A stretch of DNA of 64,000 bases from Hymenobacter translucens (GTDB lineage: Bacteria; Bacteroidota; Bacteroidia; Cytophagales; Hymenobacteraceae): positions 434,001 to 498,000 of the forward strand of contig NZ_JAJERB010000001.1 of assembly GCF_020685205.1 (NCBI RefSeq), given 5' to 3'. Under the pieces are notes generated by a model that worked only from the letters and a program-made list of their open reading frames with translations, was not told where the DNA came from and did no database searches. A program made the position numbers and the translations under genes. Numbering within the stretch: the stretch's first letter is position 1; each line of letters starts with the position of its first letter. Below are positions 25,783-61,452 of the stretch, piece by piece.

Positions 25783-25859
25783 TGGTACCCCGTAAACGAT
25801 TCGAACGTTTGACCGCTCGCTTAGAAGGCGAGTGCTCTATCCAGCTGAGCTAACGGGGC
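25783..25859 (-). tRNA. tRNA-Arg (anticodon TCT)
   Basis: Complete cloverleaf: acceptor GCCCCGT/ACGGGGT, anticodon stem CTCGC/GCGAG with loop CTTCTAA (anticodon TCT, reads AGA/AGG) and TTCGAAT in the T loop. Discriminator A is followed by an encoded CCA at 25783-25785, unlike the two neighbouring tRNAs. Confidence 0.96.
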
Positions 25860-25902
25860 GTAGCGGATGGTCAGCTAACTTAACAAGAAACCAGAGCCTT
25901 TC

Positions 25903-25937
25903 AAAAAAGGCCTCACACCGGTAGTATGAGGCCTTTT
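25903..25937 (-). terminator. Terminator of tRNA-Pro
   Basis: AAAAGGCCTCA (25905-25915) pairs perfectly with TGAGGCCTTTT (25927-25937); on the minus strand the stem is followed by a T6 run. It lies between tRNA-Pro and tRNA-Arg. Confidence 0.85.
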
Positions 25938-25995
25938 GAAGAAGGATACAAGTGCGGGCAGAACTGGCGGCGACGCAGCCATATCCACACTAGCG

Positions 25996-26069
25996 TCGGG
26001 GTGGCAGGATTCGAACCTGCGGCCTCCTGCTCCCAAAGCAGGCGCGATACCGGGCTACGCTACACCCCG
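25996..26069 (-). tRNA. tRNA-Pro (anticodon TGG)
   Basis: Acceptor CGGGGTG/CACCCCG, anticodon stem CCTGC/GCAGG with loop TTTGGGA (anticodon TGG), T loop TTCGAAT. CCA is not encoded. Its 5' end lies one base after the T run of the preceding terminator. Confidence 0.96.
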
Positions 26070-26130
26070 AAAAAAATGTTGAGTTTTAAGTGCCTCAGAA
26101 GAACTGCTGGTCAGCACTTAAAACTCAACA
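26070..26130 (-). terminator. Terminator of tRNA-Ser (perfect 17-bp stem)
   Basis: Arms 26077-26093 and 26114-26130 are exact reverse complements (TGTTGAGTTTTAAGTGC and complement) with a 20-base loop, followed on the minus strand by T6. It fills almost the whole spacer between tRNA-Ser and tRNA-Pro. Confidence 0.85.
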
Positions 26131-26138
26131 ACAAAAAC

Positions 26139-26228
<90 letters not shown>

Positions 26229-60718: not shown

Positions 60719-60803
60719 AAAAAAAGGCGGTCCACCAGACCGCCCCTTTTCCACAACCAAAACACCTAAAAAACTATTCTTTCGAGTAGCTTTTTAGCAA
60801 TCT
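60719..60803 (-). ncRNA. Candidate small RNA with own promoter and terminator
   Basis: About 85 nt on the minus strand. Promoter pair TTTG/TAATTTTG lies directly upstream (60810-60842). The predicted RNA forms a first hairpin CTAAAAAGCTA/TAGTTTTTTAG (60766-60797; one G-T pair), then a GC-rich terminator hairpin GGCGGTC/GACCGCC (60726-60744) with T7 run (60719-60725). No open frame of note. Alternative: an attenuated leader of tetR, 130 bases downstream. Confidence 0.5.
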
Positions 60804-60809
60804 TCAGGC

Positions 60810-60842
60810 CAAAATTACAACACAGAAGTTTAGGTATTCAAA
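60810..60842 (-). promoter_or_regulatory. Promoter of the candidate small RNA
   Basis: On the minus strand TTTG (60839-60842) and TAATTTTG (60810-60817), spacing 21, both fit the Bacteroidota consensus. No minus-strand coding gene starts within the next 220 bases. Confidence 0.55.
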
Positions 60843-60917
60843 AAAAATAGCCTGAATCCGAAAAAAATTTCCACAACTAATCCCCGCCCGACGAATACGG
60901 CAGCGCCCATCGGGAAT

Positions 60918-60975: not shown

Positions 60976-61452
60976 ATGGAAACTCCCAATCCCGACTTTA
61001 TGCGGGCGGCCATCCGGCTGTCCATCGAAAAAATGCAGGCTGGCTTCGGCGGCCCCTTTGGCGCCGTGGTTGTGAAGGACGGGCGCATCATCGCCCAGGG
61101 CTTCAACCAGGTTACCAGCACCAACGACCCCACCTGCCACGCCGAAGTCGACGCCATCCGCAAGGCCTGCCGGGAGCTGGGTACGTTTCAGCTCGACGAC
61201 TGCGACCTGTACACTTCCTGTGAACCCTGCCCCATGTGCCTGGGTGCCATCTACTGGGCCCGGCCCCGCCGCGTGTTCTACGGCAACACCAAGGCCGATG
61301 CCGCCGCCATCGGCTTCGACGACCAGTTCATCTACGACGAAATCGAGAAGCCCCTCCCCGACCGAGGCATTCCCATGCAGCAACTTTTGCGCGATGAGGC
61401 CCTGGCCGGCTTCCGTGCCTGGGAAAGCAAAGAAGGCAAGACAGAGTATTAG
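60976..61452 (+). CDS. guaD: Guanine deaminase (GuaD, cytidine-deaminase fold)
   Basis: A 158-residue deaminase very close in pattern to Bacillus GuaD, converting guanine to xanthine. Zinc site: His and Glu in DPTCHAEVDAIRKAC and the cysteines in TSCEPCPMCLGAIYWARP. GGPFGAVVVKDGRIIAQGFN and GFDDQFIYDEI with the aromatic C-terminus (FRAWESKEGKTEY) agree with GuaD rather than with TadA, whose C-terminal part is different. ATG at 60976 starts at the family N-terminus. The gene is single, with a terminator shared with ffh. Confidence 0.88.
   Translation: METPNPDFMRAAIRLSIEKMQAGFGGPFGAVVVKDGRIIAQGFNQVTSTNDPTCHAEVDAIRKACRELGTFQLDDCDLYTSCEPCPMCLGAIYWARPRRVFYGNTKADAAAIGFDDQFIYDEIEKPLPDRGIPMQQLLRDEALAGFRAWESKEGKTEY

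Follow-up and report, generated by a model that had tools for sequence, protein, structure and literature searches.

The stretch of Hymenobacter translucens DNA analyzed here, 64,000 nt in length and referred to below as the window, contains a gap flanked by tetR (60589-60050) and by a nucleoside deaminase gene in divergent orientation (60976-61452). A small RNA (sRNA) gene is predicted on the minus strand of this gap: a promoter-like box is followed by a 13-nt spacer, by the sequence GAAAGAATAGTTTTTTAGGTGTTTTGGTTGTGGAAAAG and by a hairpin ending in a run of seven T residues (Table 1). The start of tetR lies 130 nt downstream of the predicted gene on the same strand. Taken together, the sequence evidence points to a free-standing and well conserved small RNA gene with a predicted transcript. 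A coding reading of this transcript was dropped: it contains no ATG and, by inspection, no reading frame survives because copies differ in length by one base within the conserved part and have unrelated terminator letters. Just upstream of the promoter, bases 60840-60879 of the minus strand give a weak second match to the GTTGTGGAAA part (6 bits, E 0.91), which is possibly due to chance or a decayed remnant. Elsewhere in the window, three consecutive tRNA genes are found on the minus strand (25786-26228).

Table 1. Predicted features of the sRNA gene, with positions in the window
Feature	Position	Strand	Comment
Sigma-54-type promoter TGGCCTGAAGATTGC (-24 TGGC, -12 TTGC)	60797..60811	-	Motif in 57/64 distinct copies
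Predicted small RNA, 65 nt	60719..60783	-	Start predicted at 60785-60783; end is the T run
12-mer AGGTGTTTTGGT within the conserved 5' part (60746-60783)	60756..60767	-	Invariant in 37/37 aligned copies
GGTTGTGGAAAAG, core found in both intact and partial copies, probable crossover region for the integrase	60746..60758	-	Junctions compared by eye
Predicted Rho-independent terminator, 15-bp stem, 3-nt loop	60719..60751	-	Folds and arm covariation

An earlier, sequence-only reading of this DNA had described the candidate RNA as an orphan, but a 161-nt query gave one or more DNA similarity matches in 36 of 37 genomes of the genus, the sole miss being a genome that is 82% complete (G028). The same query matched none of 22 genomes from other genera of the order. 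A sequence-only model (R1), made from 37 copies in 36 genomes, had matches in 125 of 200 genomes of the family, including 115 from the same genus, eight from genus g26 and one each from g24 and g25. The last two matches are weak (E-values: 9.0e-5 and 7.8e-4, respectively) and that in g25 may be due to chance. Of the 75 non-matching genomes in this search, 20 are listed, and among these the one miss from the same genus was again G028. The window copy scores 74.3 bits against R1, the alignment of which includes the window sequence itself, and it is the single copy in its genome by both DNA similarity and R1. When a core pattern with 24 fixed bases was compared with 84,980 species, 85 stretches were found, and the 80 listed are all from Hymenobacteraceae (78 Hymenobacter records, one of Solirubrum puertoriconensis and one Hymenobacteraceae MAG). 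In genus g24, a divergent relative of the sRNA was also seen (L144, at G140:C1:3695966-3696037, L282 and L283); a query with the g24 copy matched three of the 41 genomes of this genus, one of them being the source of the query, and no sigma-54 box stands out in L144 by eye. This relative may be a deeper homologue of the sRNA.

Conservation is concentrated in the predicted transcript. Of 106 copies, 62 have only a sigma-54 box; their mean identity (with one-base shifts uncorrected) rises from 0.36 upstream to 0.61 within the box, drops to 0.46 across the spacer and reaches 0.99 for the first 15 bases of the transcript, a value set in part by the search expression, and 0.85 for the 22 bases that follow. 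The 12-mer AGGTGTTTTGGT is the same in every aligned copy, a tally that is partly circular because exact identity to it was how copies were selected; allowing one mismatch in this 12-mer gave no extra sRNA copy in the same loci. By our reading of a table of genes within 2.5 kb, 31 of the 35 other loci keep at least one neighbor family of the window locus, Ffh, deaminase, methyltransferase and thioesterase among them, so the sRNA loci are mostly one ancestral site.

The box upstream of the conserved block suggests that the gene is read by sigma-54. The pattern TGG-N8-[TC]TG lies 25-30 nt upstream of this block in 57 of 64 distinct intact copies, that of the window included, compared with 5 matches over 13,440 more distant upstream positions. 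Two bases beside the fixed ones are left free by the pattern, the C of TGGC and the T of TTG, and both are the same in all 47 copies that have only this box. A second, ECF-like pattern, [GT]GAAT-N16-[CT]GT, is found 33-37 nt upstream of the block in 17 of the 64; the sigma-54 pattern is absent from seven, and every copy has at least one of the two boxes. Both patterns were chosen after the alignment had been inspected, and the 64 copies (the 37-genome set, the 30 best family loci and the element loci described below) are biased toward good matches. Excluded from the 64, as they contain no GAAAGA, are the partial copy of G023 and the copy of G002 (L051), which has a changed 5' end and a sigma-54 box. 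Among the 80 named records, a set overlapping these 64 copies, 43 have the sigma-54 box only, 24 have both and 13 have the ECF-like box only (with that pattern loosened to GAA[TC]). With -12 at 60797, the start would lie at approximately 60785, and the conserved block begins at 60783 after a poorly conserved spacer; the start given in Table 1 is inferred from this geometry and from the onset of conservation.

The RpoN domain (PF04552) was found in all 37 genus genomes, and the genome of the window has four Sigma54_activat (PF00158) matches above 200 bits; only such strong matches are counted because each of the 14 control genomes has weaker ones. Upstream of the sigma-54 box, no binding site for an activator was identified. 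In an RpoN tree of 36 genus genomes and two outgroups (built quickly, with two of its rows fragmentary), the 14 genomes with an ECF-like box form one clade (SH-aLRT 99), consistent with one change, while the sigma-54 box needs two. As the g26 copies L119, L123 and L125 bear TGGCACGAAGATTG, sigma-54 looks, on sequence, to be the ancestral promoter class of the sRNA. Both promoter kinds occur in the phylum, since an excerpt of a transcriptomic study of Flavobacterium psychrophilum defines a motif of the -24/-12 kind as well as an ECF-type motif with a CGT box (PMC9723704). At seven loci (L208, L217, L221, L230, L242, L250 and L274), a TAnnTTTG box lies directly upstream of the conserved block (at -9) alongside the sigma-54 box and may be a further housekeeping promoter in a sub-group that includes g26.

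The sequence-only reading had proposed a full sRNA transcription unit, and this idea agrees with the conservation, promoter motif and terminator found here, but not in its promoter class, its length of about 85 nt or its 11-bp stem. The letters that it cited are present: TAATTTTG occupies 60817-60810, the stretch 60765-60798 contains an inverted repeat, and a GC hairpin leads into the seven T residues at 60725-60719. Housekeeping transcription from the proposed TTTG/TAATTTTG promoter, whether alone or beside sigma-54, would give a longer RNA containing the stem. TAATTTTG does fit the TAnnTTTG box of Bacteroidota sigma-A as given in the excerpt cited above (PMC9723704), the stem folds well and, among the 80 named records, one (Hymenobacter profundi, at -33) has a TAnnTTTG box near the place that it occupies in the window, seven others having it at -9. 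Within -45 to -8 of the conserved block, however, TAnnTTTG is found in only four of the 64 distinct copies, that of the window at -34 and three of a related genus at -9, leaving none of the 63 other copies with a box at the window position. TAATTTTG also overlaps the -24 element and is not conserved, and the TTTTG of the proposed promoter is the T-rich edge of that element. The predicted RNA is approximately 65 nt long, and the 5' arm of the stem lies upstream of its start, in the poorly conserved spacer that follows the -12 element; the stem, strong as its fold is in the window, is therefore mostly promoter DNA. In folds of this region, 20 of 105 copies can form at least nine pairs across the start, and of the seven listed with energies the window is strongest (-12.1 kcal/mol, the others ranging from -3.2 to -7.0). 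When close relatives were compared for loss of the hairpins, the terminator hairpin was retained and the 11-bp stem was not. Based on these results, we regard a housekeeping transcript of this kind as improbable. The other role suggested for the RNA, as attenuator or leader for tetR (60589-60050), would suit their shared strand and close spacing, but a gene of the tetR family adjoins the sRNA at the window locus and at none of the others (1 of 36 loci), and elsewhere different genes come after the sRNA, often on the opposite strand. A tetR leader is thus ruled out as the conserved role, and we give it next to no credence as an explanation of the window copy.

The 3' hairpin is present in every copy that was folded. 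The 88-nt strand has a predicted fold of -34.2 kcal/mol (z -5.87), and none of 200 shuffles was as good. The hairpin at 60751-60719 was not listed by a simple terminator scan, probably because, as the fold indicates, the T run is paired with a run of A residues. A hairpin is predicted in each of the 105 distinct copies, and its sequence takes 81 different forms. All 37 predicted transcripts fold with a long 3' hairpin and have a 5' part that is unpaired or in a weak A/U-rich hairpin; the latter is firmer in L036, L038 and L043, and in L051, where the 5' end is different. Because hairpin registers differ in the alignment (A1), pairs were counted in loop-centered hairpins instead. The count covered 35 of 36 loci, the omitted locus having no 3-nt loop in its fold, and gave 30 distinct hairpins, in the inner 11 pairs of which 328 of 330 cells are standard pairs, with 113 double changes. 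When arms were shuffled between genomes, the mean was 199 paired cells (highest 232) and 32 double changes (highest 50). Locating the hairpins by folding each copy favors pairing, but we do not think that this explains the size of the difference. The letters of this predicted Rho-independent terminator change between genomes while its pairing is kept.

A second feature of the gene is its association with mobile elements. In 17 genomes, R1 identified a second copy 2-69 kb downstream on the same strand, and in 15 of these the second copy is without the first 14 or more model positions. Outside these 17 genomes, weak second matches were seen at G163:C6, G171:C11, G026:C1:1513147 and G217:C1:3447518. 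The 17 junction loci discussed below include G163:C6 (L145), although it is not among the 17 two-copy genomes, while L146 (G171), L144 and L148 are not junctions and were excluded from the counts. At 14 of the 17 junction loci, a gene for a tyrosine recombinase is located approximately 110-400 nt from the partial copy; no integrase of the queried kinds was found at the other three, nor at the G023 junction (L157), which was viewed apart from the 17. Six of the integrases were scanned, and all six match Phage_int_SAM_5 at E <0.001 (four of them above the curated cut-off), while the catalytic-domain model PF00589 matches one (E 0.001, below its cut-off); endings resembling R..GH..Y are visible by eye. 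Six integrases of the elements are 20-65% identical to one another and yet use one site. By eye, intact and partial copies have GGTTGTGGAAAAG in common, several sharing a few bases more; in G196, both copies are alike across the whole terminator and the integrase is at the other end of the element. Short tandem repeats seen by eye beside the partial copies are probably arm sites. A reading of these repeats as Tn7- or IS21-like ends was dropped, as the elements carry tyrosine integrases.

DNA on the far side of the partial copy matches the flank beyond the sRNA gene of single-copy relatives at 12 of the 17 junction loci, whereas DNA beyond the intact copy matches that of relatives in 0 of 13; right flanks at the remaining five junction loci match no compared genome. 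No inserted element was seen in the window's own genome, where only a single match is present. The simplest reading of these sequences is that the sRNA gene is an attachment site and that its 3' half is replaced by arriving elements. Such a supply of new 3' ends may explain why terminators differ so strongly between genomes. The elements themselves (L149-L156) carry varied cargo consisting mostly of unknown genes, together with some that look resolvase-like by eye.

Based on these results, we think it likely that the locus encodes an ncRNA of approximately 65 nt that has a sigma-54 promoter and a base-pairing 5' part, with the gene doubling as a tyrosine-integrase attachment site. RpoN would transcribe the sRNA from the -24/-12 box once an enhancer-binding activator has been switched on, and transcription would end at the 3' hairpin. 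The working part is most likely the conserved 5' part (GAAAGAAUAG-U6-AGGUGUUUUGGUUGUGG), which is weakly folded at most and most likely pairs with short stretches of mRNA without Hfq. In recombination at GGTTGTGGAAAAG, the promoter and 5' part would stay in place and the RNA would gain the terminator of the element, the old 3' half moving to the far end of the element. Sequence comparison directly shows the conservation, the promoter motif, the pairing of the terminator and the element junctions, whereas transcription, its dependence on sigma-54, action by base pairing and movement of the elements are deduced. If instead the conserved block were only an attachment site, spread and kept by elements and giving no useful RNA, then tyrosine integrases at 14 of 17 junction loci and the apparent carriage of the 3' half by elements would be expected. 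We consider this very improbable, as the 5' part and promoter box, both located chromosomally with respect to the crossover, are conserved in single-copy genomes as well, and as terminators keep their pairing despite sequence change.

No target was found among perfect complements of the 5' part. Perfect complements of the 12-mer outside the sRNA gene and its partial copies number 18 in the 37 genomes, compared with 22 for a reversed control pattern, and a 14-nt perfect complement outside these regions occurs once in the 37 genomes, in G016. A 10-nt complement, TTTCCACAAC, before the divergent deaminase gene (at about 60870) was rejected as a target, since it occurs outside the sRNA gene in 1 of 36 loci. 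Hfq (PF17209) had no match in the window's own genome, making chaperone-assisted pairing of the enteric kind unlikely. A role in which the sRNA mainly binds a protein, as a decoy, rather than pairing with mRNA is consistent with the lack of an excess of perfect 12-nt complements in the 37 genomes and with a long, conserved, U/G-rich 5' part that is unpaired or weakly folded. A count of perfect 12-nt complements does not cover short or imperfect seeds, however, and no candidate protein is known, so that a decoy appears rather unlikely to us. Pairing via short, partly wobble-paired seeds is considered the most likely mode of action, with protein binding as its main rival.

A broader picture can be offered more tentatively. 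The sRNA may be part of the genus core, with an ancestral sigma-54 promoter that moved to ECF control in one clade, and may be built of two modules, a regulatory 5' part that stays fixed and a 3' terminator cassette exchanged again and again through site-specific recombination by divergent integrases; we hold this as a possible rather than a favored account. If the two-module reading is true, mobile elements could adjust the level or stability of the RNA each time that they arrive. To our knowledge, few small RNAs have been characterized in Bacteroidota. A strongly conserved RNA gene with a specialized promoter leaves the signal, activator and targets open to genetic search. Studies on the evolution of small-RNA control could also draw on the natural series of exchanged terminators on this RNA and on the single switch of promoter class in the tree.

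Sigma-54-dependent small RNAs such as Qrr and CrcZ are found in proteobacteria. The proteobacterial GlmY/GlmZ RNAs, which also depend on sigma-54, are, as far as they are described in the source used here, like the Hymenobacter sRNA in being free-standing, short and preceded by a -24/-12 promoter. In contrast to these proteobacterial RNAs, the Hymenobacter sRNA belongs to another phylum, is approximately 65 nt in length, has no Hfq match in the window's genome and has an ECF-like promoter in one clade. At gathering threshold, Rfam contains no family that matches in the gap, the three tRNA genes being the only matches in the window, while a permissive search gave 11 weak matches around the gap (7.9-24.9 bits). 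Among Bacteroides sRNAs, BTnc201 (RF04177) and FopS (RF04319) give weak partial matches of 21.0 and 17.2 bits, respectively; membership in either family was rejected because these scores are far under the gathering scores of 105 and 56. We found no open-access paper combining Hymenobacter, sigma-54 and small RNA, and those naming Hymenobacter together with sRNA are apparently on other subjects. Two F. psychrophilum RNAs, Rfp11 and Rfp18, are likewise sRNAs of Bacteroidota, and the excerpted study lists Rfp11 under the ECF-type motif SM6 and defines SM4 as the sigma-54 motif (PMC9723704). Rfp18 is described there as strongly structured and as pairing through its third stem-loop (PMC9723704); going by that description, it is set apart from the Hymenobacter sRNA, whose predicted fold comprises the terminator hairpin and, in the 5' part, no more than a weak hairpin.

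Small RNA genes also serve as attachment sites in other bacteria, accounting for 17% of prophage integration sites in S. enterica according to Bobay et al. (2013), as cited in PMC5502288. Attachment sites in tRNA, tmRNA and sRNA genes show the same pattern as that seen here, in which insertion of an integrase-bearing element results in an intact copy and a 3' partial copy. The Hymenobacter site is different in that the terminator is apparently supplied by the element and varies between elements. A sigma-54-driven sRNA and an RNA gene used for attachment are each of a known kind, while their combination, together with terminator exchange, is unusual.
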